Positions 5,191-36,195 of a DNA stretch of 36,321 bases are shown here, piece after piece (the first letter of the stretch is position 1; each line of letters begins with the position of its first letter). The position numbers were made by a program, and so were the translations under genes. The DNA comes from Oscillospiraceae bacterium (GTDB lineage: Bacteria; Bacillota; Clostridia; Oscillospirales; Ruminococcaceae). The notes beneath the pieces are model-generated. The model saw only the letters and a program-made list of their open reading frames with translations, ran no database searches and was not told the origin of the DNA. The DNA is taken from positions 1 through 36,321 of the forward strand of contig JAIKWY010000058.1 of the NCBI GenBank assembly GCA_024684395.1, in the 5' to 3' direction.

Positions 5191-5228
5191 ATTGCGCAGA
5201 TTTTCACTGCATTTTTTGAAAAAAAGAC

Positions 5229-5257
5229 TTGACAAACGGTTCCCGCTGTGGTATAAT
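5229..5257 (+). promoter_or_regulatory. Sigma-A promoter of tRNA-Pro
   Basis: TTGACA at 5229-5234 and TATAAT at 5252-5257, perfect consensus with a 17-base spacer, about 38 bases before the tRNA 5' end. Confidence 0.85.
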
Positions 5258-5294
5258 ATTATTCGGTGGGTTGCCACCAGTACCCCATATAGGT

Positions 5295-5367
5295 CTGGGT
5301 GTGGCGCAGTTGGTAGCGCGCTACCTTGGGGTGGTAGAGGCCGTGGGTTCAAGTCCCGTCACTCAGA
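5295..5367 (+). tRNA. tRNA-Pro (anticodon GGG)
   Basis: A 73-base cloverleaf can be folded by eye. The acceptor arms CTGGGTG / CACTCAG pair with one G-U; the D arm is GCGC...GCGC with AGTTGGTAG; the anticodon stem CTACC / GGTAG encloses loop TTGGGGT (anticodon GGG); the T loop is TTCAAGT. The discriminator is A and the CCA end is not encoded, so CCA must be added after transcription. It has its own promoter. It decodes CCC/CCU proline codons. Confidence 0.93.
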
Positions 5368-5391
5368 CTTTGCAGCCAAAAGCTGCATCAG

Positions 5392-5426
5392 ATGCGCTCC
5401 GAGCATAGCTTGGGGCGCATTTCTGT
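5392..5426 (+). terminator. Possible tRNA-Pro terminator
   Basis: ATGCGCTCC (5392-5400) pairs with GGGGCGCAT (5412-5420) with one G-U, followed by TTCTGT. It is the first good stem after the tRNA, but the T tail is weak. A smaller TGCAGC/GCTGCA stem lies between the tRNA and this hairpin. Confidence 0.4.
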
Positions 5427-5599
5427 ATGCATGGGACGCATTGTTCCTAAAAATGTAACGATCCGAAACGCCCCCACGCCCGGTTCGCACCGGCGCAGGC
5501 ATGGGAAAAACAGCAATTTTGCCCCTGTTTTTTCTTCGATGATAGTCTGACTTTCAGGAGGCCCGCAGCATCCGCTCCCAAAAAATCTCACATTGCCTC
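5427..5599. other. Non-coding gap with hairpins between tRNA and CRISPR region
   Basis: I see no convincing gene here. It contains a bulged hairpin (CGCCCGGT / ACCGGCG around 5478-5495) and an A/T-rich inverted repeat GAAAAACAG (5505-5513) / CTGTTTTT (5525-5532) followed by TC, which could terminate transcription in either direction. An 85-residue open frame on the minus strand has no start context or recognisable domain. Confidence 0.4.
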
Positions 5600-5628
5600 T
5601 TGACTTTTTGTATAAACTGTGGTATACT
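5600..5628 (+). promoter_or_regulatory. Sigma-A promoter of the CRISPR mini-array
   Basis: TTGACT at 5600-5605 and TATACT at 5623-5628 with a 17-base spacer. There is no protein-coding gene downstream on this strand before yqfC, so the promoter must serve a non-coding transcript that reads the leader and the CRISPR repeats. Confidence 0.75.
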
Positions 5629-5635
5629 AATAACA

Positions 5636-5708
5636 GTTGCAGCACCTGTCACCGGCAAAGCGCACGAAAGCGCAGCCAGAAAGCGTCCAGGAATGATGCA
5701 CTTTTAGG
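5636..5708 (+). other. Transcribed leader of the CRISPR mini-array, structured
   Basis: About 73 bases between the predicted transcription start and the first repeat. It contains GCGC...GCGC around GAAA (about 5660-5673), a small stable hairpin. Its first six bases, GTTGCA (5636-5641), are complementary to TGCAAC inside the first repeat (5711-5716) and identical to the first six bases of that repeat, so the leader could fold onto the repeat. The leader start could also be a worn ancestral repeat (GTTGCA ... CGCACGAAAGC), but the match is too weak to claim. Confidence 0.45.
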
Positions 5709-5808
5709 GTTGCAACTCACACGCCTCACGGCGATTGAAACGTCTTTGCTTCCGGCTGGTTCTGCATGAACGACAGCTACACGTCACACGCCGCACGGCG
5801 CTCGAAGC
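5709..5808 (+). CRISPR. Orphan one-spacer CRISPR mini-array (repeat-spacer-degenerate repeat)
   Basis: Two 33-base units, 5709-5741 and 5776-5808, flank a 34-base unique spacer (5742-5775). The units agree at 25 of 33 positions. The first ends in ATTGAAAC, the classic 3' handle of type I/III repeats, and begins GTTGCAAC. Both carry the same hairpin CGCC-NCAC-GGCG in the centre. The second is altered mainly at its two ends (handle CTCGAAGC), as expected for a leader-distal terminal repeat. Repeat and spacer lengths fit Cas6- or Cas5-processed class 1 arrays. Orientation agrees with the sigma-A promoter at 5600-5628. No cas gene lies in the window, so any processing would need proteins encoded elsewhere. 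Alternative: two homologous hairpins of a structured non-coding RNA, or the remnant of a decayed array. Confidence 0.62.
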
Positions 5809-5872
5809 AGGACGAGATCCTACGAAATGTCGATGTGCAGCCGATGCAGCACATCCGCATGAAAAAACAAAA

Positions 5873-5912
5873 CGTCCGCTCTTCCGTCCTGTTATGGACA
5901 AAAGAGCGGGCG
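5873..5912. terminator. Bidirectional terminator between CRISPR transcript and YlbJ-like gene
   Basis: CGTCCGCTCTT (5873-5883) pairs with AAGAGCGGGCG (5902-5912) with one G-U. On the minus strand it is followed by TTTTGTTTTTTC, a strong terminator tail for the YlbJ-like gene. On the plus strand the tail is CTCTATTTATATCT, weaker, and would end the CRISPR transcript. Confidence 0.7.
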
Positions 5913-5939
5913 CTCTATTTATATCTATCTGAAAAATGG

Positions 5940-6983
5940 TCATCCCCCGGTACGAGCCGGGGGCTTTCTGCTGTGCGCCGACCGGGAACGCCTGCACGCC
6001 ATCCCCCTGCGCACCTCCTCCCCCCGGTGTATCACCATCACCGACATCACGAGCAGGCACGCCCCCGGGAGCCAGTGTGCTTCACGCTGTATGGGCATCC
6101 CGCCGCCGACCAGCGCCGCCTGCTGCACCTCCCGGCACAGGTAGGGCATCCCGAAGCTGCACAATGCATATGCCATGCCGCTGCACAGCACCCGCACCGC
6201 CCAGAACCTCGCCCACGGAAGCAGACCCCCGCTGACCGATGCCATCTGCATATGCACACAGATGCCGCCGAACGTCAGCAGCGCCGCCGCCATCGGGAGC
6301 GGGCCCTGCCAGTCCGCCAGACAGGTCACTTCGAGCAATGCCCGCAGGAATGCCGGGGCATCCGGATGCAGCCTTGCCGGGAGTGCGAACAGCCCCAGTC
6401 CCTCTGCGACCGCCATGCAGCCTGCCATCGCCAGCACCATGCCGCAGATCCGCAGCATCGCCCCGGCAGCCGCTTCCACGGATCCCGTCAACAGCTGTGT
6501 ACCACGCAGATACGCCGTTTCCTGCATCTTCGGCTCGATCTTCCGCAGCAGCACAGCCGCACACAGCAGATTCGGCAGACTCACCGAGAGCAGCATCCAG
6601 AGCGCAGCCCGTCCCGGCAATCCCCTGCACACCGTCCCGAACAGGAACCCCGGACCGCAGCCCATGCAGACGCAGAGCATCCGCTTTGCCTCGGGCTGCG
6701 TGATGCTCTCGCTCCGGTACAGCCCGTGTACGAGCTGTGCGCCGAGCGGATAGCCGCCGAGCTGCGACATCACCACGACTACCGCAACGCAGGCTTTTCC
6801 GCCCGTATGCAGCACCCCGCTCCGTGTGCAGACCGCCGCTATGATCGAGTAGAGATACAGCGAAGGCACCAGCACCGTCAGACACCGCTCCCCCGCCGCC
6901 AGCATACTGCTGCACACCTGTGCATGAAACAGCGCTGCCGCTGCAAAAAACGCCGCAGCAGCGACCGATCTGCCATACTTCAT
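5940..6983 (-). CDS. ylbJ: Sporulation integral membrane protein, YlbJ-like
   Basis: A 347-residue polytopic membrane protein. Hydrophobic helices run through its length. The N-terminal layout (one helix, then CLTVLVPSLYLYSIIAAVCTRSG) and the GYPLGA motif in the following loop match the YlbJ family, whose members use a GYPxGA sequence and a nucleoside-transporter-like gate fold. In Bacillus, YlbJ is made in the mother cell under sigma-E and is needed for heat-resistant spores. The ATG at 6983 places the first helix as in relatives; another ATG lies two codons upstream (6989), and a still longer frame would run through the predicted promoter. It is slightly shorter than the Bacillus protein. 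It faces yqfC-yqfD, also sigma-E genes in Bacillus, across a shared promoter region. Function beyond spore formation is not readable. Confidence 0.72.
   Translation of the reverse strand: MKYGRSVAAAAFFAAAALFHAQVCSSMLAAGERCLTVLVPSLYLYSIIAAVCTRSGVLHTGGKACVAVVVVMSQLGGYPLGAQLVHGLYRSESITQPEAKRMLCVCMGCGPGFLFGTVCRGLPGRAALWMLLSVSLPNLLCAAVLLRKIEPKMQETAYLRGTQLLTGSVEAAAGAMLRICGMVLAMAGCMAVAEGLGLFALPARLHPDAPAFLRALLEVTCLADWQGPLPMAAALLTFGGICVHMQMASVSGGLLPWARFWAVRVLCSGMAYALCSFGMPYLCREVQQAALVGGGMPIQREAHWLPGACLLVMSVMVIHRGEEVRRGMACRRSRSAHSRKPPARTGG
5944..5967 (+). terminator. Second hairpin, possible plus-strand terminator
   Basis: CCCCCGG / CCGGGGG with loop TACGAG followed by CTTTCTG. It overlaps the last codons of the YlbJ-like gene on the other strand and could act as a backstop for the CRISPR transcript. 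Confidence 0.45.
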
Positions 6984-8557: not shown

Positions 8558-11500
8558 TTACTTAACCGGGAAGGACTCGAGGATCTCAACAACATACTTC
8601 AGGATGTTGAGGGAGTCGATCTCATCAACGATACTGTTGTCGTCAACGTCAGCGTTGATCTTGCCCTGCGGCTTGAGCTGCTCGCCAACCATGAGGTTCT
8701 TGTTCAGCGTGATAACGTCGATGATGTCAACCTTGCCGTTGCAGTCAACGTCGCCGTATACCTTGTCGCCAGGCTGATCGGTCGGCTCATCAGTCGGCTT
8801 CGGATCAGTCGGGTTCTGAGTGGACTCACCGATGTTCGGAGCCTCGTCCTCAACGAAGGAGGAGATCCAAACGAGCGGAGCGTTCCAGTTGATGGTGATC
8901 TCGTTTACAGACCATGCATCGCAGTTATCATAGTAGCACTTCATCGGAGCCAGTTCGCCGATCTTGTAGCCGGCACCCTGGATCATCGGGTCGTTCATGT
9001 CGGAGTTAGGACCACCGGAGAGGCATCCATCCGGAGCAGACGGCCAATCGGGCTTCATCTGGTGGCACCAGTATCTGTGGTGCGGGTTAGCAGTAGTCGT
9101 ACCCTCGTTACCGTAACCGGTTACATAGGAGTTCTCGATCGCATTTCTACCGAAGATGTAGTCCATAGCGGTGATAACGCCGTTGCAGTACTTCGGATCT
9201 TCGGTCAGGTCATAAGCCATACCGAGGATCATAGCGTTGTTGATAACCATGGAGTTGGAACCCCACTCATAACCGCCCTCGAGGGTGATGGACCTCTCGG
9301 AAGCAGTATCGCCGATGATGTCGGTTACAGAAGTATCATAGGTATGACCCGGATACGGAGAACCGTACATAGACTCGCCCTCGTACTTCAGATAAGTATC
9401 GCCGGCAGCCTGGAACTGGTTAACAACTTCCTTAGCCTCAGCAGCATCGAGCAGATCCTGATGGAGTGCCAGAGATGCGGTACCGAGGGAGGACAGAGTA
9501 CCCCAAGTGAAGGTTGTGGGAGAACCCTTATTCTCACCGCCTACGAGGTCGGTGATTACCTTGAATGCGAAGTCATCGGAGCCCTTCAGGTCATCATAGT
9601 AGCTCTTGTCACCAGTGGTAACATACAGCTCGCAAGCTGCCCAGTAGAACTCGTCAGTTACCTGAGTATCACCGTAGGGGCCGCCGCCCTTGTTCTGATC
9701 CAGAGGAGCGAACTTGGAAGGATCGGTCAGAGGAGTACCCAGATCGGTAGCATCAGAAGCCTGCTTGTAGATGGAACCATACTTCTTCTCATAGTCATCC
9801 TTAGCAGCCTTGTAGGACTTCTCAGCGTACTCGAGGTACTTGGAAGCATCCTTGTCGCCAGCCTTTTCCAGCAGACGGGACAGCTGTGCCAGAGCGGCAG
9901 CAGAGTTCAGGGTAGCTGCATAGGTTACAGGCTTAACGATACGAGTCGGCATAGTAACGTCCTCGTCAGCATCTTCCTCAAGGTACGGCATTACACCAAG
10001 AGCAGTCCACTTGTAGTCATGCATCTTGTGATATACGAAGCCGTCATCACGGGTCATGTTGATGAAGAAGTCAGCCTCCCACTTCAGCTCGTCGAGGATA
10101 TCAGGAGTGCCGTTGCCGGTCTCCGGGAGCTTCTGGGTGGTAGCCTTGCCCTCAGCGAACTTCTCAGGATTACGCTCGTAAGCGTTTGCCAGAGTCCACA
10201 TGGAAACACCGCCGTTTACAACGTACTTACCGTAGTCACCGGCATCGTACCAACCGCCTGTGCAGTCGATCTGCTTGGAATATCTGCCCTTGATCTCGGT
10301 GTTGGTTCTCTCCTCATAGAGGAATACCCACTCATCGGTCACATAAGCCATATCCTTCGGGTGACCAGCGTCACGAGTCAGAGCAGACTTCGACTTGTTC
10401 TTACCGCCGTTAGCGATGTAGGAATCCTCGATCGCAATACCGGAACGGTTCAGGTAGTAGTAGTTGAAGGAGTCTCTCAGCAGGTCGCCGTAAAGATCTT
10501 CCTTGATCTCGAAGTCAACAGACTTGCCGCCGGCAGTCAGGGTGTACTTACCAGGTGTCTTCAGCTCAGAGAAGTCGATGACAGCTGCGCTCTCCCAGGA
10601 ACCAGAGTCCTTCTTCGGGGTGCTGGAGGTACCGGACAGGGTCTCCGGTCCAGTGATCTTCCAGTCAACAGCAGAAGTGGTCTCGATGGTAGCCTGCTTG
10701 ATGGTCTTCGGATAGAAGCCGAGCTGATTGAGCATCAGACCCTTCTTCTCCGGCTTCTCTTCTGCCTTGTAGTCGTTGGAGTCGCCGGACATATCCATGA
10801 GCATCATGTTATCGAACTTCAGGATGGTGCCCTCCGGGAACATTGCCTTGTCAGTGAACTGACCGTCGCCGCCGAAGTGGAATGTCCACTCAACGGTGCC
10901 CTCACCGGTAGGTGTGGTGCCTTCCTGCTTTACGTTCTCCATGTAGGAGTCGTCGATGATGAACTCATAGGAGAAGGTGGTCCACTTCTTAGCCGGGATC
11001 TCGATGTTCTTCCAGGAGTTCCAGCCTTCATAGTAAGGAACATCCCACTGGCTCTGGTTGGAGTCGATGGTCTTGCTCGGGGTAGCAGACTTCAGAGCGC
11101 TTGCGAGCTCATCCATAGACATGTCTTCCTTGTACTCCAGACCGAGCTTGTTACCGTTACCATGCCAGTACTCTGCGTTATCGTTGGTGATATCACCGAT
11201 CTTCGGATACAGCTTACCGGAGTTGGTAGCGTATACGGAGTAGGTGATACGATAGGTGTTGCCATACTTGATGGACATACCTCTGTGACGGAACTGGCAG
11301 TCCCATCTGTCGTCACCGCCGTTGGAAGCACCGCCGGGGTTCTTGATGAGGATGGAATATACGCCGTCATTGATGTTGAACGCCATCTGACCGGTACCGT
11401 TTTCGCAAACGTGCCACGGCAGACCAGCGCCCTCCTCGAAAGTACCCTCACCGGTCATGACGCCAGCATAAGCGGTCAGGGAAGCAAGAGATGCTGCGGA

Positions 11501-11569
11501 AGCAGATGCTGTCATAGCGATTGCAACAGCGGATGCCGCCAGCTTCTTGCCAAGTTTGGATGTAAGCAT
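8558..11569 (-). CDS. Cellulosomal GH9 cellulase with CBM4-like, Ig-like and dockerin modules
   Basis: A 1003-residue secreted enzyme. Modules in order: signal peptide (about 1-35, ending LTAYA); a CBM4/9-like carbohydrate-binding region (about 40-260); an Ig-like CelD_N domain (about 277-357); the GH9 catalytic domain (about 360-905); a Pro/Thr linker; and a type I dockerin (about 936-1003). GH9 signatures are visible: DAGD at 442-445 (nucleophile side), PHHR at 829-832, and catalytic acid Glu 890 in SVNEITINWNAPL. The dockerin has two calcium loops, DVDCNGKVDIID and DVDDNSIVDEID. GH9 enzymes of this layout hydrolyse beta-1,4-glucan; the dockerin should plug it into a scaffoldin cohesin, none of which is in the window. 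ATG 11569 follows GGGAGGG; a longer frame adds 31 residues ahead of the signal peptide and is rejected. It has its own promoter and terminator. Confidence 0.95.
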   Translation of the reverse strand: MLTSKLGKKLAASAVAIAMTASASAASLASLTAYAGVMTGEGTFEEGAGLPWHVCENGTGQMAFNINDGVYSILIKNPGGASNGGDDRWDCQFRHRGMSIKYGNTYRITYSVYATNSGKLYPKIGDITNDNAEYWHGNGNKLGLEYKEDMSMDELASALKSATPSKTIDSNQSQWDVPYYEGWNSWKNIEIPAKKWTTFSYEFIIDDSYMENVKQEGTTPTGEGTVEWTFHFGGDGQFTDKAMFPEGTILKFDNMMLMDMSGDSNDYKAEEKPEKKGLMLNQLGFYPKTIKQATIETTSAVDWKITGPETLSGTSSTPKKDSGSWESAAVIDFSELKTPGKYTLTAGGKSVDFEIKEDLYGDLLRDSFNYYYLNRSGIAIEDSYIANGGKNKSKSALTRDAGHPKDMAYVTDEWVFLYEERTNTEIKGRYSKQIDCTGGWYDAGDYGKYVVNGGVSMWTLANAYERNPEKFAEGKATTQKLPETGNGTPDILDELKWEADFFINMTRDDGFVYHKMHDYKWTALGVMPYLEEDADEDVTMPTRIVKPVTYAATLNSAAALAQLSRLLEKAGDKDASKYLEYAEKSYKAAKDDYEKKYGSIYKQASDATDLGTPLTDPSKFAPLDQNKGGGPYGDTQVTDEFYWAACELYVTTGDKSYYDDLKGSDDFAFKVITDLVGGENKGSPTTFTWGTLSSLGTASLALHQDLLDAAEAKEVVNQFQAAGDTYLKYEGESMYGSPYPGHTYDTSVTDIIGDTASERSITLEGGYEWGSNSMVINNAMILGMAYDLTEDPKYCNGVITAMDYIFGRNAIENSYVTGYGNEGTTTANPHHRYWCHQMKPDWPSAPDGCLSGGPNSDMNDPMIQGAGYKIGELAPMKCYYDNCDAWSVNEITINWNAPLVWISSFVEDEAPNIGESTQNPTDPKPTDEPTDQPGDKVYGDVDCNGKVDIIDVITLNKNLMVGEQLKPQGKINADVDDNSIVDEIDSLNILKYVVEILESFPVK

Positions 11570-11724
11570 TGGTTTTACCCTCCCATTAAAATAAAAGATT
11601 TTGGACATATGCTGCTTCTGCCCAGTGCAAGCATCCGCAGCATTCGAGCCGATGGATTTCATCTGTCAGATTTCATACAGCTCTCACACTGCATTCATCT
11701 GCTCTTAAAAATCCTATCATAATC

Positions 11725-11753
11725 ATTATAGTATATTTGTACAAAAAAGTAAA
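11725..11753 (-). promoter_or_regulatory. Sigma-A promoter of the first GH9 gene
   Basis: Minus-strand TTTACT (11748-11753) and TATAAT (11725-11730) with a 17-base spacer. The mRNA leader would be about 150 bases long, room for regulation, though I see no known riboswitch in it. Confidence 0.7.
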
Positions 11754-11835
11754 GAGCTTTTTGAAAATTTGTCGTTTATTACAAACCGATATTACAGATT
11801 CTGTACATGTTGACGAAGTTATATACATGTAGTAG

Positions 11836-11868
11836 AAAAATGCCCACATATTTGTTGCGGGCATTTTT
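11836..11868 (-). terminator. Terminator of the second GH9 gene
   Basis: AAAAATGCCC (11836-11845) pairs with GGGCATTTTT (11859-11868). On the minus strand the stem ends in TTTTT and is followed by CTACTAC. It separates the two GH9 genes, so they are not one transcript by default. Confidence 0.7.
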
Positions 11869-11904
11869 CCGATTTCATGCAGTTTTTGATAACGTTTTCG
11901 CTGA

Positions 11905-14343
11905 TCAGGCGATCGGCAGAGCCTCAACGATCTCCACGACATACTTGAGGATGTTCAGGCTGTCCACCTCATCCGGTCTTTCCGGATCGCTCAGGTCAAC
12001 GTCAGCAGACAGCTTTGCCTCTGCGCTCAGCGGCTCGCCGATCATCAGCGCCTTGTTGAGCGTGATGACATCGAGGATGGAGACGGTACCGTCCAGATCC
12101 ACGTCGCCGTACAGAATGATCGGCTTGTCATCGCTCGTGGAATCCGTGGTCGGATCGTTCTGCGGATCGTCCGGCTTGGTAGCCTCAGTCGGTGTCGGAT
12201 CGGGATCCGTCTTGGGCTCGGTCGGCTCTTCGCCGGTCGGCTTGGTGCCGTCGGGCTCCTCGCCCCATACAAGAGCGCCGTTGACATACATCGTGAAGTG
12301 CTCGTTGAGCGCCTTCGGATCCTTCAGGCTGTCGGTTGCCGTCAGACCTTCATAGGACCAGTCGTTTTCCGGATCCCAGGCACCCTTGGTGGACTGTCCG
12401 TCAATGGCATCCGGGATGGATACACGGAACTGCACCTCATCACGGTGTTCGCTCTGGCCGGTCGGCTGGATGGCACGGCCGTCCTCGAACTTGATCTCTG
12501 CATAATAGGTATTGCCGGACGGGTCGCCCTCAAACTTATAGGGGCCTGTCACCGTGGCAAAGCCCTGCTCGCCCTCGGAGTACTGCTGCGGCTTGGCCTC
12601 GACCTTGATATCATCCACACTCAGACCCGCCTTGAGCAGCTCCTCGATGTTGAAGTAGTAGTGATAGCTGATGTCCTTGGCAACTCTTGCCGGCCATGCG
12701 GTGTGGTTCATCGCCCATGCCTTGACCTCGGTATAGCTGTCGCCCTTGCCGTTGAGGACGGCTGCGACTTCCCACTCAGCCCACTTAGGCTCTTCCTTCG
12801 GCGGGAAATTCGCAAGCTTGCTGCCGTTGTCATAATCGCCGATCATTGCAGCGAGCGCAGAGGTAAAGCCGGCATTGTAGTCGATGGCTACCTCGGAGAA
12901 CTCGTACTTGCTGACCTGATTGGTGTACTCGCCGCTCTTGTCAGGGCCGCCGACCAGTGCGCCGTACAGCGTATGGGCATACTCTGTCTGCCAGTTGTCG
13001 CCGGAAGTGGAAGCTGTTGCGCTCTTGGGCTGACCGAGGTCATTCCAGTGGTCATCGTGAACGCCGGAAGCGGTTCTGTGGTGGATCGCAGTCGGCTCAA
13101 GCGTTGCATGGCTCATACCGAGCACATAGCACTGGCCGAGATTGTTATCGCCGAAACAATAATCCATCTGGCTCTTTGCCCAGTCCTGGTACTTCTTGGA
13201 CAGTGTTGCATCATCCTTGAAAATCGTGTCACACGCCAGGAAAGCGACCCATGCAGTCGTGGAAGCATGGCGCAGAGAGCCCCAGTTCATGAGGTATGCA
13301 AGGCCGTCCGGGGTGTACTCGATCTTCTTGCCGCCGTAACCGTCGATCCAGTAATCGAGATGGTGAGAAATATGGTCGATCCAGTCCTTTTCGCCGGAGA
13401 TCTGTGCATACAGCAGTGCAGCGCCCTGTGTGGTATCATCCCAGCAGAGGCCCCAGGTGTACTTCCATGCATCGGACTGGCTTTCCTTCGGGAAGTTCGG
13501 GATATAGTCCTTCTTGATCTTGTCCAGATAGCTGTCATCGCCGGTTGCCTTATAGAGCCAGCAGGCTGCATACATGCAGTCATCCACCCAGCTTGAGGTC
13601 GGGTACATGGAGCCCATGCCGCCCTTGTCCTCGGTATCGCGCCATGTATCGGCAAGCTCAAAGAGCTCCTTGGCAGTGGCAAGGTACTTGGCAGCCTTAT
13701 CCGGCTGGCTGTCCTTGAAGATGATATAGCCCTCTGCGAGTGCAGCCGCAGCAAGGCCGGCAACAGTGGAATTCTCGACCGTATCATACGGGCGCTCCCA
13801 GTCGCCGTTGTTCAGGTGATGCTTGCGCAGGTAAACCTCAGCGCTGCACCAGATGTTATGGTCGGTGGATCCGCCGGTGAAGTCGCCGATCGTGCCGACC
13901 AGCTTGCCATTGCCGAGGTAGCAGGCATTGACATAATCCATGCCCCACTCGATCATATTCAGATAATCCTTGTCGAGGCCAGCCTTCTTGAGGTTCTCCT
14001 CATACTCGATGTAGCCCCAGCCCAGCATGGACGCAGAATAGGCATTGGTCAGCGTGAACTTGAAGTGGTCGCCGGCATCGAACCAGCCGCCCTTCACGAC
14101 ATCGGTCTCGTTGCCGTCTTCATCGACCATGGAGTCCGCACGCCACGGCACATTGTTCCACTCCGGGAGCTTGCCGGACTGCTGCACCTCATAGAAGAAC
14201 ATCGACTTCTGGAGGGCCTCGGCGTAGTTGTACTTGCTGTCAGCAGCCTGAACCGGGATCGGTGCAGCCGCCTGCAGCGGAGCCGTGAGTGATGCAGCGC
14301 ACATCACCAGGCCGGCAATTCCTGCCAGGATTTTGCTTTTCAT
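11905..14343 (-). CDS. Cellulosomal GH9-CBM3c cellulase with dockerin
   Basis: An 812-residue secreted enzyme of the endo-processive GH9-CBM3c type. Signal peptide about 1-33 (ending VQAAD); GH9 domain about 36-510, with GGWFDAGD at 85-92, HHR at 421-423 and catalytic Glu 484 in SEVAIDYNAGF; CBM3c about 520-690 (starting WAEWEVAAVLNGKG, typical of modules that feed a glucan chain to the active site); an acidic Pro/Thr linker (about 695-745); and a dockerin (about 748-812). The first dockerin calcium loop is regular (DVDLDGTVSILD). The second reads DVDLSDPERPDEVD, two residues longer than the usual 12, so calcium binding or cohesin choice may differ. ATG 14343 follows GAGAGGGG. It complements the neighbouring CBM4-type GH9, suggesting two modes of cellulose attack from one locus. 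Confidence 0.95.
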   Translation of the reverse strand: MKSKILAGIAGLVMCAASLTAPLQAAAPIPVQAADSKYNYAEALQKSMFFYEVQQSGKLPEWNNVPWRADSMVDEDGNETDVVKGGWFDAGDHFKFTLTNAYSASMLGWGYIEYEENLKKAGLDKDYLNMIEWGMDYVNACYLGNGKLVGTIGDFTGGSTDHNIWCSAEVYLRKHHLNNGDWERPYDTVENSTVAGLAAAALAEGYIIFKDSQPDKAAKYLATAKELFELADTWRDTEDKGGMGSMYPTSSWVDDCMYAACWLYKATGDDSYLDKIKKDYIPNFPKESQSDAWKYTWGLCWDDTTQGAALLYAQISGEKDWIDHISHHLDYWIDGYGGKKIEYTPDGLAYLMNWGSLRHASTTAWVAFLACDTIFKDDATLSKKYQDWAKSQMDYCFGDNNLGQCYVLGMSHATLEPTAIHHRTASGVHDDHWNDLGQPKSATASTSGDNWQTEYAHTLYGALVGGPDKSGEYTNQVSKYEFSEVAIDYNAGFTSALAAMIGDYDNGSKLANFPPKEEPKWAEWEVAAVLNGKGDSYTEVKAWAMNHTAWPARVAKDISYHYYFNIEELLKAGLSVDDIKVEAKPQQYSEGEQGFATVTGPYKFEGDPSGNTYYAEIKFEDGRAIQPTGQSEHRDEVQFRVSIPDAIDGQSTKGAWDPENDWSYEGLTATDSLKDPKALNEHFTMYVNGALVWGEEPDGTKPTGEEPTEPKTDPDPTPTEATKPDDPQNDPTTDSTSDDKPIILYGDVDLDGTVSILDVITLNKALMIGEPLSAEAKLSADVDLSDPERPDEVDSLNILKYVVEIVEALPIA

Positions 14344-14405
14344 TGTAATTACCCCTCTCGTAATTTTTCGCTCCGGGCAGTGCGTGCCGGAACGTATACA
14401 CTTTC

Positions 14406-14434
14406 ATTGTACTATAATTTGGCGGTTTTGTCAA
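14406..14434 (-). promoter_or_regulatory. Sigma-A promoter of the second GH9 gene
   Basis: Minus-strand TTGACA (14429-14434) and TACAAT (14406-14411) with a 17-base spacer. Confidence 0.75.
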
Positions 14435-14490
14435 GTATTTTGTGATGAATTTATAGCAGGCGGCAGGCGCCGCATGACGAACATTCCCTC

Positions 14491-14519
14491 TTTACCTTTC
14501 CCCGAAAATATGCTATAAT
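14491..14519 (+). promoter_or_regulatory. Sigma-A promoter of the unknown protein gene
   Basis: TTTACC (14491-14496) and TATAAT (14514-14519) with a 17-base spacer and a TG two bases before the -10 box (extended -10). It diverges from the GH9 promoter 60 bases away. Confidence 0.7.
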
Positions 14520-14551
14520 AGACCCATCCACTACCACAGGAGGGCAATTCT

Positions 14552-15406
14552 ATGGCGATCTTCAACAAGCACTTCAACGGCTGGCACCTCGAAACGGACG
14601 AGAACCGGATCAGCAGCTTCTCAGAGCGTGACCTGAAAAAGGCGGTACACGGCGTCCATCGCAAGACGCTCTCCTACTGCATCCTGACACCGCCGCAGCC
14701 GGTCAGGGGGTGCAATTTCCTGCAATTCTGCCTCGATGAAAAGGGCAAGTACCGCCTTGAATACAGCTTCACAGACGAGAGCCGTGCCAATGTCCTGCGC
14801 TTCCGGGAGGGCATCTCCGGCGGCGAGCTGGACAATCTGCTCGGCGATCTGCTCGAAAAAGGCTGGATCCCCGATACCTCCCGCTGGCAGACCGTGGGCG
14901 TGTTCCCCGACCGCTATGACCGGACGGTCTATGAAGACATCCTCCGCCGGATCGGCGGCGAACCGGCTGTCGAAGCCTTCCGCTATGCGCTCGATTCCCC
15001 GCAGGGCTGGTATCATGAACATGCAGCAGCCTATGCGGCAAGGGGCATCCCCTTCACCTCCGGTAACGGGCGGCTGCTCTGGGTCGGGCTGGCGGATCAC
15101 CTTATCGCAGGCGGCTGCATGGTAGAGCTGAAACCGGACACCGACCTTGCGAACTTTCTCGGCGCTGTGCGGCATATCTGCGGGACGCTCCCCGTGGAGG
15201 ATGCATGGTTCGATCCGACACATTCCCTCCCCCGCTGGTGCGCCATGCTCGACCGGAAATGGTGGGACACCGGCTGCTGCATGGGTGCCATCGACATCGA
15301 CGCAGGTACGTACATCCTGTTCGTCACCACCCGCACCGAGCTCGGACATCTCAGAGAGCTGGCAAAGTCCCTCGGCGAGTGCATCGACCTTGCCAAACGG
15401 ATATAG
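14552..15406 (+). CDS. Protein of unknown function, possibly DUF6630-like
   Basis: A 284-residue soluble protein with no signal peptide or membrane segment. I do not recognise it with certainty. The C-terminal half, around GRLLWVGLADHLIAGGCMVELKPDTDLANFLGAVRHI, resembles the DUF6630 pattern (an LLW...L.D.L stretch followed by a charged core), but this is weak. The N-terminal part is rich in charged residues and shows no catalytic motif I can name. AGGAGGG lies seven bases before the ATG, and the gene has its own promoter. The 31-base dispersed repeat begins immediately after the TAG stop. No operon partner is evident; the diguanylate cyclase that follows has its own promoter. Confidence 0.7.
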   Translation: MAIFNKHFNGWHLETDENRISSFSERDLKKAVHGVHRKTLSYCILTPPQPVRGCNFLQFCLDEKGKYRLEYSFTDESRANVLRFREGISGGELDNLLGDLLEKGWIPDTSRWQTVGVFPDRYDRTVYEDILRRIGGEPAVEAFRYALDSPQGWYHEHAAAYAARGIPFTSGNGRLLWVGLADHLIAGGCMVELKPDTDLANFLGAVRHICGTLPVEDAWFDPTHSLPRWCAMLDRKWWDTGCCMGAIDIDAGTYILFVTTRTELGHLRELAKSLGECIDLAKRI

Positions 15407-15437
15407 ACGGGGAGCCCCCGCTGGCAGACGCACGCCG
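15407..15437 (+). repeat. 31-base dispersed repeat, copy B
   Basis: It matches 5113-5143 at 30 of 31 bases and starts directly after the TAG of the preceding gene. The rest of the gap to 15610 shows no gene or known RNA motif. Confidence 0.75.
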
Positions 15438-15610
15438 ATTGTAGCATAAAGAACAGACCAGAGCCTGCGTTGATGATGTCCTGTCTCCACAGCGATCATT
15501 TTTGTTAAAGCGGGGCAAGGGGGGCAGTTTGCAGGGCTTTGTCCTGACTTTGACACACTTTGGCAATGTCTTCCAATTAGCAATTTCTATAGAAAATTTC
15601 ACTTTTCCCC

Positions 15611-15639
15611 TTTACATTCCGTGAATACTATGCTATAAT
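15611..15639 (+). promoter_or_regulatory. Sigma-A promoter of the diguanylate cyclase gene
   Basis: TTTACA (15611-15616) and TATAAT (15634-15639) with a 17-base spacer and a TG extension before the -10 box. Confidence 0.8.
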
Positions 15640-15660
15640 CAAAATAGATATGTATGCCTT

Positions 15661-15698
15661 TACATCCCCACAGGGGAAAGCTAACGTAAAAGGATGTA
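15661..15698 (+). promoter_or_regulatory. Leader with two competing hairpins over the ribosome site
   Basis: TACATCC (15661-15667) can pair with GGATGTA (15692-15698), which contains the AAAGGA ribosome site of the diguanylate cyclase. CCCC (15666-15669) can instead pair with GGGG (15673-15676). The two stems share two bases and exclude each other, the layout of a small translational switch. No known riboswitch consensus is apparent. Confidence 0.4.
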
Positions 15699-15703
15699 TT
15701 GCT

Positions 15704-17839
15704 ATGGAAAATCAGAAGCGTGAACCACAGACATTTGCCAACCTTGCACTGGCGCTTGCCAATGACTATGACCGCCTGTTCGTCATCGATTCGACCGACG
15801 ACAGCTATGTGGACTATTCCACGTCCGGCACCGAAAAGGAGCTCGTTGCCTCCGCACGGGGTACCAACTTCTTCGAGGATGTCCACCGGGACTGCCGTGA
15901 GCAGGTCTGGTGGGAGGATCAGGAGATGTTCCTCGCCGCCTTCCGGAAGGAGACCGTGACACAGGCGCTGAAAGACGGCAAGTCGTTTTCGCTGACCTAC
16001 CGCCTGAACATCGACGGCGCCCCGAAGTACTTCTTCTTAAAGACGATCCGTGGCAATGACCGCAGCATCATCATCGGTGTGCAGGACATTGACGCCCAGA
16101 AGCGGCAGGAGATCGAAGCCGAGGCGGCAAGCCGTACCTATTCCGAGATCGCCGGCTCCCTTGCGAGCCTTTTCGAGGTCATCTATCATGTGGATACCGA
16201 TACGGGACACTTCACGGTCTATGTCGGTGCCAGCGACTCCGAGGATCTTGCCAAGGGCATCAAGGGCGAGGATTTCTTCGAGCGCACAGCCGAGGATCTG
16301 AAACATGTCGTCCATCCCGATGATCTGGAGCGTGTGCTGCAGGAGCTCGACCGGGAAACGCTGCTCCGCCACCTCGAAGAGAGCGGCACGGTCTCCGTGA
16401 CCTACCGGCAGACCTACCAGGGACAGACCCAGTACATGAACCTGCTGGCATTCCGGCAGAAGAACGGTCCCCAGCGTGTCGTGATCGGTGTGCGTAACAT
16501 CGACGCCCAGATGAAGCGGGAATCCGAGAGCCGCACCTATTCGCTCATCGCCGGTGCGCTCGCCAGCCGCTATGAGGCGATCTATTATATTGACGCATTT
16601 TCCTATGAATATACCATCTACAGCGCCAGTGAGCGGTACTCCAGGCTCGGCACCACACGGCACGGCAAGAATTTCTTCGCCGATGCCGCATCCGACATCA
16701 AGAAGCTCATCCATCCGCATGACAAGCAGCGGATCCTCACGGAGCTGCGGCCCGAGAACCTTATGAGCCATCTGGCAGAGTCCGGTTCGCTCTCACTGGT
16801 CTATCGCCAGCTGCTCGACGGCAGACAGCAGTATGTGAACCTGATGGTCGTGCGCCCGAAGAACGACCCGGGACACATCGTCATGGGCGTGTTCAATACC
16901 GATGCACAGGTGCGCCGGGAAAAGGCGATCGAAAGCCAGAGCCAGACGTTCAGCGATATTGCGATGGCGCTTGCACAGCGGTACGAGGTCATCTACCATG
17001 TCAATATCATCACCAATGAATTTACGGAATACAGCGCCAGCGAGAAATATTCCAAGCTCAAGGTCGGCAATCAGGGACAGAACTTCTTTGCCACAACGCA
17101 GGAGAATATGAAGCGGGACATCTACCCGGATGACCTGCCGATGATGGCGCTCTCCATGCAGAAGGAGAACCTGCTCAACAGCCTTTCCACCTTCGGCAAG
17201 ACCATCCTGAACTACCGTCTGATGATGGACGGACGGCCGCAGTATGTGTCGCTCTATGCCGTCCGCCCGAAGGAGGATTCCTCGCACATCATCATCGCCG
17301 TGGCAAATGTGGATGCCGCCAAGCGCATGGAGATCGCCTACCAGAATGCTGTGGATATGGCGAACCGTGATGCCCTGACCGGTGTCAAGAACAAGCGTGC
17401 CTATGTACAGGCGGAGACAGAGCTCGATGAGATGATCGACAAGCAGAACAACCCGCCGTTCGCCATCGTCATCTGCGATGTGAACGGTCTGAAACAGGTC
17501 AATGATACGCAGGGTCACAAGGCGGGCGATGACTTCATCCGCAGCGCCTGCTCGATCATCTGCAACAACTTCAAGCATTCGCCCGTGTTCCGCATCGGCG
17601 GCGATGAATTTGCCGTCATCCTGAAAGGCACCGACTACGAACACCGCACGGAGCTCATGGAGCAGCTTGATCAGGTGCTCCGGGAGAACCCGCATAACGG
17701 CGTTGTGATCATCGCAGCGGGCATCTCGGATTTCGTGCCGGAGCAGGATATGCGTGTGCAGGACGTTTTCGAGCGTGCGGATGATCTGATGTATGACAAC
17801 AAGGAGGTCTGCAAGGCGGGCATCCCGGCGGAACGTTAA
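15704..17839 (+). CDS. Diguanylate cyclase with four tandem PAS-like sensor repeats
   Basis: A 711-residue soluble protein. Residues about 10-540 are four homologous units of about 125-135 residues (roughly 10-132, 145-269, 278-402, 416-538). Each starts near a (S/E)IAxxLAxxYExIYxVD element and ends in an IGVxNIDAQ-type strand, consistent with PAS-like folds. The C-terminal GGDEF domain (about 550-705) has an intact GGDEF at 632-636, preceded by RDALTGVKNKRAY. The expected enzyme makes c-di-GMP from two GTP. The position five residues before GGDEF has no RxxD, so the usual product-inhibition site is missing. No membrane helix or signal peptide is seen, so it should sense a cytoplasmic ligand or partner. 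ATG 15704 is used; an upstream ATG at 15650 lies in the leader hairpins. Confidence 0.9.
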   Translation: MENQKREPQTFANLALALANDYDRLFVIDSTDDSYVDYSTSGTEKELVASARGTNFFEDVHRDCREQVWWEDQEMFLAAFRKETVTQALKDGKSFSLTYRLNIDGAPKYFFLKTIRGNDRSIIIGVQDIDAQKRQEIEAEAASRTYSEIAGSLASLFEVIYHVDTDTGHFTVYVGASDSEDLAKGIKGEDFFERTAEDLKHVVHPDDLERVLQELDRETLLRHLEESGTVSVTYRQTYQGQTQYMNLLAFRQKNGPQRVVIGVRNIDAQMKRESESRTYSLIAGALASRYEAIYYIDAFSYEYTIYSASERYSRLGTTRHGKNFFADAASDIKKLIHPHDKQRILTELRPENLMSHLAESGSLSLVYRQLLDGRQQYVNLMVVRPKNDPGHIVMGVFNTDAQVRREKAIESQSQTFSDIAMALAQRYEVIYHVNIITNEFTEYSASEKYSKLKVGNQGQNFFATTQENMKRDIYPDDLPMMALSMQKENLLNSLSTFGKTILNYRLMMDGRPQYVSLYAVRPKEDSSHIIIAVANVDAAKRMEIAYQNAVDMANRDALTGVKNKRAYVQAETELDEMIDKQNNPPFAIVICDVNGLKQVNDTQGHKAGDDFIRSACSIICNNFKHSPVFRIGGDEFAVILKGTDYEHRTELMEQLDQVLRENPHNGVVIIAAGISDFVPEQDMRVQDVFERADDLMYDNKEVCKAGIPAER

Positions 17840-17854
17840 AAAGGGGGAGCTCAG

Positions 17855-18271
17855 ATGAAGAAAAGGATCATCATAATCGAATGGGTAGAGAGCAGCGGCA
17901 GCTGTATCGCAGGCATTATTGCAGCAGGTGTGGTCGCTGTGATACTTTATGTTGCAGTGGCGATATGGCCGTCAATGTTCATCGAGCTGGCGAACGGAAA
18001 ATCCGGCTACAATACAGTCGCCTATATCGTGCTGATCATCATGGGGCTGATCCCCTCGTTCGTTGTTGAGATCACGAACAAGGACGGAAAATACGGTTCA
18101 AAATACCTGACCAATATCATCGTCATCTCTCTGCTGATGATCGTTCTTTCCATCATCGAAGGCTCCTTCAGCTTCTGGGTATTGCTCGGCTGCATATTTG
18201 TTGCTGCGGTGATCTCCCTGCTGCCGACGACGGTGTTCCACCTGATCGGCAAAGCCATCCGGGGAAGCTGA
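17855..18271 (+). CDS. Small four-helix membrane protein, unknown function
   Basis: A 138-residue protein with four predicted membrane segments (about 18-40, 54-70, 84-102, 106-128) and a basic N-terminus. AAGGGGGAG precedes the ATG at good spacing. It starts 15 bases after the diguanylate cyclase stop, so the two are probably co-transcribed. That suggests a role linked to the signal protein, but I recognise no family. A terminator follows. Confidence 0.7.
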   Translation: MKKRIIIIEWVESSGSCIAGIIAAGVVAVILYVAVAIWPSMFIELANGKSGYNTVAYIVLIIMGLIPSFVVEITNKDGKYGSKYLTNIIVISLLMIVLSIIEGSFSFWVLLGCIFVAAVISLLPTTVFHLIGKAIRGS

Positions 18272-35961: not shown

Positions 35962-36040
35962 TTCACATTCACCTCCGATAATTTTTTACGGGCATCCCGG
36001 AAAGTAAACTTTCTGTGATCCCCTCATCGTATCGGGAGAA

Positions 36041-36160
36041 ACAAAAGCTCTCCTTGCTATGAGACATAACAAGGAGAGTGGATATTTCGTGATAAAATAA
36101 CCATCTGCACTCCTCGGCCGGATTTACGGCGTTCGCCACCGGCTGTCTTTAGAATACGAC
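36041..36160 (-). ncRNA. L10 leader with attenuator
   Basis: The minus-strand leader contains the conserved L10-binding region: CCGGTGGCGAACGCC, GTAAATCCGG and CCGAGGAG (about 36100-36145). It then has a 14-base-pair terminator stem CTCTCCTTGTTATG / CATAGCAAGGAGAG (36048-36078, one G-U) followed by CTTTTGTTT. This is the Firmicute L10 leader arrangement, in which protein binding lets the terminator form. Confidence 0.88.
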
Positions 36161-36166
36161 TGTATT

Positions 36167-36195
36167 ATTATAGCACAATGCGGATGGTTTGTCAA
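36167..36195 (-). promoter_or_regulatory. Sigma-A promoter of rplJ-rplL
   Basis: Minus-strand TTGACA (36190-36195) and TATAAT (36167-36172), perfect consensus with a 17-base spacer. Confidence 0.9.

Follow-up and report, generated by a model that had tools for sequence, protein, structure and literature searches.

The window, i.e., the whole stretch of 36,321 nucleotides analyzed here, carries on its forward strand at positions 5709-5808 a short CRISPR array which is most likely a remote source of guide RNA rather than a new kind of element. Its repeat, its leader and the homology of its terminal repeat, together with a cas operon and cas6 elsewhere in the genome, the lack of a cas1 match and a conserved repeat stem, strongly support, on sequence grounds, that the element belongs as a CRISPR array to the type III-D system of its genome. 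We consider it likely that it is a genuine leader-bearing, one-spacer array of this III-Dv-like system, remote from the cas genes and non-acquiring, whose crRNA would be cut in trans by Cas6 and loaded. An earlier note on this DNA had left the choice between a remnant, a remote array served by Cas proteins located elsewhere, and a regulatory mini-array; the second alternative is the one best supported by the data presented below, while the third has gained no positive support.

The array, located on contig C72, consists of two 33-nt repeats (5709-5741 and 5776-5808, + strand) surrounding a single 34-nt spacer (5742-5775, + strand), coordinates which agree exactly with those first proposed. The two repeats are identical at 25 of 33 positions, and a direct-repeat search picks out this pair by itself. 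As in CRISPR arrays, direct repeats of constant length thus enclose a unique spacer of similar size, and an upstream leader carries a promoter in the right orientation. Both repeats contain the hairpin CGCC-NCAC-GGCG, and repeat 1 ends in the class 1-type handle ATTGAAAC (5734-5741), two features already recognized in the earlier note. The leader (5441-5708, + strand), delimited by its homology to copies on contigs C212 and C118, comprises conserved upstream DNA, the promoter and a transcribed 5' part. The sigma-A-type promoter predicted by a site scan, TTGACT-17-TATACT with an extended -10 (5600-5628, + strand), is one of three promoter-like sites in 5200-6000, another of which precedes a tRNA gene, against a mean of 0.5 in shuffles. 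The promoter and leader postulated ahead of the array were recovered on the right strand. A GC-rich hairpin (5863-5919, no strand assigned) closes the cassette and encompasses a terminator-like site on the opposite (-) strand (5909-5876).

The second repeat has kept its hairpin, while its distal end reads CTCGAAGC instead of the handle ATTGAAAC of repeat 1. It had been described as worn at the sites where terminal repeats usually are. This repeat and the last repeat of array A, a six-repeat array on C118, indeed both contain the terminal-repeat signature GGCGCTCGAAGC; since ACGGCGCTCGAAGC is also common to these two terminal repeats, the "wear" appears partly inherited and only partly a matter of decay. 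Under a repeat model trained on 26 repeats, which included the majority of the own-genome repeats, the window terminal repeat obtained the lowest score (37.5 bits) among 12 own-genome repeats, whereas repeat 1, itself used to build the model, was recovered with an E-value of 5.6e-9.

The genome (G000) is a draft of 4.21 Mb in 225 contigs with a listed contamination of 4.26%. The window leader and first repeat match three other places in it (E 3e-53, 7.6e-54 and 9.7e-111), which a DNA search located on C212 and at two positions of C118. Scanning of these stretches revealed array A with six repeats and array B with three on C118, and one repeat on C212; arrays A and B hold 7 spacers of 30-38 nt. 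At E-values up to 5, the repeat model retrieved 12 repeats in four arrays, nine on C118, two in the window and one on C212 (150 of 3246 first-look candidates were scored, and very worn repeats could be missed). Window repeat 1 is identical, letter for letter, to repeat A2 of array A, so that the same repeat stands beside cas genes of this genome. A chance repeat is ruled out by this identity and by the homology of the leaders.

Positions 5441-5739 of the window are identical to the C212 copy at 267 of 299 positions, and the homology between C72 and C212 runs past the array into the closing hairpin (78% identity). The two C118 copies share 94% identity with each other and 75-76% with the window leader and first repeat. 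The promoter -10 is kept in both C118 leaders and altered in the C212 copy, which has a single hybrid repeat with a 5' part like repeat 1 and a 3' end like the terminal repeat. Upstream of the C212 leader lies DNA similar to the 3' end of the cas7 gene located before array A and to the sequence following that gene (39 of 50 nt, reached by 0 of 2000 shuffles), from which the C212 cassette probably sat formerly behind a cas7 gene. A mixed assembly is an unlikely source of these several arrays, as the composition of C72, C118 and C212 agrees (tetranucleotide correlations of 0.976-0.989; the values are 0.90-0.93 against genome G024 and 0.41-0.74 against five further genomes). In the assembly, C72 and C118 form distinct contigs; should they adjoin, the window array and cas6 could be ~13 kb apart. 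At a threshold of E 1e-8, the leader was detected in one of 396 family genomes, namely its own (the set was drawn from a larger group, with two candidates scored per genome in the rows shown).

The cas genes of C118 (locus L009) lie on one strand in the order cas6 (17379-18098), array B, cas10 (15140-16672), a gene encoding a 655-aa Cas5_IIId fusion with a Cas7-like N-terminus (13176-15143), a double Cas7 of 412 aa, or Cas7-2x (11941-13179), csx19 (11433-11966), a 617-aa TIGR03986 Cas7, or Cas7-insertion (9575-11428), and array A. TIGR03984 and TIGR03986 were matched above cut-off, and PADLOC assigned Cas10d, Cas5_IIId, Cas7_IIId and Csx19; Cas10, which has no NCBIfam match, and Cas6, which falls below the NCBIfam cut-off, were both named by PADLOC. 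Among PDB chains, those of the III-Dv complex 8s9t came closest (E 6e-13 for Cas7-2x and 1.8e-14 for the Cas10 profile), and no PDB chain was matched by the 655-aa fusion. The operon contains the III-Dv gene set of cas10, fused cas5, cas7-2x, csx19 and cas7-insertion. The genome-wide search for the repeat and cas6 that the earlier note had called for thus led to repeats on C118 and C212 and to cas6 on C118. The absence of cas genes that it had reported holds for the window, in which neither a tblastn search with the six own III-D Cas proteins nor a comparison of 13 window proteins with PADLOC returned a Cas homolog or family, but not for the draft genome. It had also held that absence of the repeat from other arrays of the genome or its relatives would speak against a CRISPR array; instead, two arrays flank a III-D operon accompanied by cas6, and relatives possess the repeat too.

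Based on these intact parts, a route to a functional guide can be proposed, in which transcription, processing in trans, loading and RNA cleavage are all inferred. The promoter at 5600-5628 would transcribe the array, and Cas6 from C118 would cleave each repeat beneath its CGCC/GGCG hairpin, at a distance of 8 nt from the repeat end. The resulting crRNA, predicted to consist of ATTGAAAC, the 34-nt spacer and a trimmed repeat, would load into a complex of Cas10, the Cas5 fusion, Cas7-2x, Csx19 and Cas7-insertion, and the loaded III-D complex would bind and cut matching RNA.

Adaptation genes are frequently absent from type III loci and hence not obligatory. No cas1 (PF01867) was found in the draft genome, while 9 of 14 control genomes matched, and this lack together with the diverged repeats suggests that the window array is probably no longer gaining spacers. 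Similarly, the type VII arrays, which likewise go with no adaptation module and with repeats bearing multiple substitutions, have been read as seldom taking new spacers in the description consulted (PMC12669027); they differ in that the effector here is a Cas10-based III-D complex and not Cas14. The palm motif of Cas10 (L009 15140-16672) is SDGDE instead of the GGDE found in genomes G024 and G001, so that cyclic-nucleotide signaling may be lost in this genome.

The repeats appear to be constrained in their hairpin. In the 12 own-genome repeats, 46 letters deviate from the consensus and none of them falls in the 8 stem positions of CGCC-NNNN-GGCG, a 4-bp stem. As 17 of the 33 repeat columns are invariant, this sparing has a P of 0.0018 for random columns and is found for 1 of 22 placements, values that serve as a guide only because the repeats are related. 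Among 26 distinct repeats of the genus, the stem is paired in 98.1% of cells, which 0 of 500 shuffles reach. In G024, one pair of the stem is altered on both sides, giving CACC/GGTG, a version present in 3 of the 26 repeats, all of them from this genome. Of 500 shuffles, 207 yield as many pairs with changes on both sides, and none as many such cells.

A second symmetry was observed in the first 8 nt of the repeat (e.g., window 5709-5716 and L009 9261-9268), which form a perfect palindrome in 19 of the 26 distinct repeats, as GTTGCAAC in 11 and GATGCATC in 8. Repeat positions 2 and 7 switch together (11:11, 4 unpaired); the covariation score of the palindrome and its number of cells changed on both sides exceed 500 of 500 shuffles, while its number of changed pairs does not. 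The state of the palindrome seems to track the last bases of the leader, a link which might reflect integration-site specificity. In addition, inspection by eye showed in the leaders of six relatives' arrays (L087, L088, L089, L090, L092 and L093) an inverted repeat near GGTGCGAA...TTCGCAC that precedes the first repeat by some 140-210 nt, and a variant of it in the L091 leader; the own-genome leaders have TTCGCACC only once.

Within the genus, the repeat family was found by pattern in 6 of 38 genomes (G000, G001, G003, G004, G012 and G015), and the CACC/GGTG version of G024 stands beside its own III-D operon and Cas6. The Cas6 search matched 6 of the 38 genomes, of which G016 (22% identity, E 2.2e-8) was left out as not having this Cas6; the relatives retained, in G001, G012, G015 and G024, are 51-60% identical to the protein of the own genome, counted as 100%. 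A matching Cas6 thus occurs in 5 of 7 genomes with repeats and 0 of 31 without (Fisher p = 4e-5, with G024 classed post hoc and its variant looked for in none of the others; with G024 counted as lacking the repeats, p = 9.7e-4). The two genomes which have repeats and no Cas6 match, G003 and G004, are 72% and 82% complete. The III-D Cas10 was matched well in G000, G001, G022 and G024 and weakly in G016. Since this protein was found in only 3 of the 7 repeat-bearing genomes (G000, G001 and G024), not in G003, G004, G012 or G015 (72-91% complete), and since G022 has it without the repeats, the repeat family does not appear strictly tied to III-D. Matches to Cas1, some of them partial, were obtained in 17 of the 38 genomes, G000, G001, G003 and G004 not among them.

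Some arrays of these relatives also seem to lie away from cas genes. At eight array loci (L087-L094, from G001, G003, G004, G012 and G015; two short G015 repeat contigs fall outside this set), no homolog of the own III-D Cas proteins was found, and none of 27 flanking proteins compared with PADLOC was read as Cas, the matches being to ATPases of the ABC type, to a permease profile that bears a CARF name and, for an HtpG-like protein, to TmtA. In the G001 draft, the III-D operon (C83), Cas6 (C51) and the arrays (C22 and C44) are on separate contigs. Several array sites are common to species, with 77-89% DNA identity over kilobases, on both sides for L089/L092, downstream for L087/L094 and upstream for L088/L090/L093. 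No whole spacer is common to any of the 12 arrays compared, which share only 12- and 16-nt matches; the window spacer went into a separate comparison. The genus DNA search also gave matches in relatives outside the repeats; most of them lie in the stretch of the promoter and were not taken as leader homologs. In G015, two oppositely oriented arrays (L091 3712-4216 and 9366-9463) flank a segment with what we take to be greA-like and lysS-like genes, and a 3.1-kb stretch of this segment is inverted between G012 (L090 2220-5351) and G003 (L093 56-3171), as if the arrays had served as inversion sites.

The neighbor of the array that the earlier note had identified as a tRNA is tRNA-Pro (GGG) at 5295-5368 (+ strand), outside the cassette. 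Thirty relatives have the neighboring gene, and in the 29 of their loci that were scanned (with flanks of 1.5 kb or less, some of them truncated where a contig ends), there were 0 tRNA-Pro and 2 tRNA-Arg, so that the proximity of tRNA and array looks incidental. Integration linked to the tRNA is without support, the leader homology beginning at 5441, 73 nt past the tRNA. A conserved structured RNA was likewise discarded, as no Rfam match covers the array and a blastn comparison of window 5200-5960 with the 29 relatives' loci gave only matches of 14-17 nt (E 0.83). Seven of the eight neighboring proteins scanned match Pfam (ABC transporter, YqfD, GH9 and others), and no phage function is named among them. 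Elsewhere in the window, a ribosomal protein L10 leader (RF00557) was detected at 36033-36170 on the - strand, and 8558-14343 encodes two large GH9 proteins, of which one carries a dockerin and the other a CBM3; these suggest that the host is a cellulose degrader.

The phage, plasmid and self searches proposed for the spacer have yielded no convincing match in any set searched. The best E-value was 0.4 among phages; the best hit anywhere, 25 nt long (E 0.02), fell on a Rhizobium plasmid, at a spot without a listed gene. No exact match to one 24-mer and two 20-mers of the spacer was found in IMG/VR. In its own genome, the 24-nt spacer core matched only itself at up to 3 mismatches; within the window, the best partial match was 21/34, versus 19-22 in 12 shuffles. 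Besides itself and the Rhizobium stretch, only 12-nt matches were found in the loci compared. For portions of one G003 spacer and of two spacers from array A, IMG/VR gave no exact match either, and array A and the G003 array returned nothing in phages; the lack of a match is therefore not special to the window spacer. Neither the window cassette in the plasmid collection nor, as an exact match, the repeat core pattern in IMG/VR was found.

The remnant proposed in the earlier note remains the main rival of the preferred reading, if a rather unlikely one: the window would hold a dead relic, a duplicated cassette without useful crRNA, drifting like the C212 copy. This sister still has its leader, but it is down to a single hybrid repeat and its -10 is altered; with the cas7-end-like DNA ahead of it, it indicates that loss and decay do occur in this genome. 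That neither a cas1 nor a spacer target was found fits such a fate as well. The window promoter, repeat 1 and both hairpins are nevertheless intact, repeat 1 has an identical counterpart on C118 and the stems are spared in 12 of 12 repeats, which argues against drift. Counted against the preferred reading are also the worn terminal repeat with its CTCGAAGC end, the SDGDE motif, the loose tie to III-D and covariation derived from G024 alone. A broader scenario, which we regard as improbable, extends to the genus: effector operon, Cas6 and leader-array-terminator cassettes would be scattered over separate chromosomal sites, the own cassettes being non-acquiring but selected for Cas6 processing, and the few fixed crRNAs, that of the window included, would fulfill a standing, possibly host-directed role and not adaptive immunity.

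A regulatory mini-array akin to CreA or scaRNA, whose spacer would direct the complex to a transcript or promoter of the host, is very improbable. Its layout would be one spacer between two repeats with its own promoter, no linked cas genes and an apparently frozen state, as seen in the window. Of these traits, the CreA antitoxin RNA of CreTA has the single spacer between two repeats and the promoter of its own, and CreTA modules carry one or two degenerate ectopic repeats (PMC9458426). In CreA, however, psiR1 is more diverged than psiR2, whereas the order is opposite in the window array, with a perfect repeat 1 and a worn repeat 2; CreTA adjoins its cas locus, and no cas operon linked to the window array, no toxin RNA and no self target was found, the 24-nt spacer core being without a self match at up to 3 mismatches and the best partial match of the spacer in the window within the range of shuffles. 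The window leader, moreover, matches the leaders of ordinary arrays. A phage-borne anti-CRISPR repeat RNA of the Racr type, in the definition given by the text drawn on (PMC10651486), hardly merits consideration: it shares with the window a short repeat unit behind a promoter, away from cas genes, but it is a solitary unit in a viral genome, whereas the window has two repeats with a spacer and a leader common to cas-linked arrays. The repeat core without an exact IMG/VR match and the seven Pfam-matched neighbors without a named phage function also speak against it.

The preferred reading, a remote array of the III-D system, has precedents, as far as the cited accounts describe them. Arrays remote from cas genes are already known in Staphylococcus aureus CIG290 and Zymomonas mobilis (PMC5294841) and, as CRISPR2, in Enterococcus faecalis (PMC4580645). 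The orphan array of CIG290 has, as here, a repeat similar to that of two cas-flanking arrays of its genome, and the I-F system of Z. mobilis has scattered arrays away from the cas locus with one common repeat (PMC5294841); compared to both, the window array belongs to III-D and has a single spacer, diverged repeats and a collapsed sister copy, with no cas1 found. CRISPR2 is likewise a stand-alone array without cas genes, but it occurs throughout its species, with spacers that vary (PMC4580645); the window array was analyzed here in one genome. A close effector counterpart is the III-Dv system of Synechocystis PCC 6803, in which cas10, a fused cas7-cas5-cas11, cas7-2x, csx19, cas7-insertion and a nearby cas6 form a set like that of C118, whose fusion is Cas5_IIId with a Cas7-like N-terminus (PMC11026444; PDB 8s9t). 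In contrast to the 56-spacer array of that system (PMC11026444), the arrays here are short and worn (6, 3, 2 and 1 repeats), the palm is SDGDE, and no cas1, an adaptation gene as in Synechocystis, was found with PF01867.

With this apparent orphan, the supply of crRNA in trans to a III-Dv-like complex can be put to the test, in a genome without detectable cas1. Cas-less arrays at sites common to related species also caution against judging, in this group, from its distance to cas genes whether an array is an orphan. Should the worn arrays still provide the complex with guides, a small fixed set of these can sustain a III-D system.
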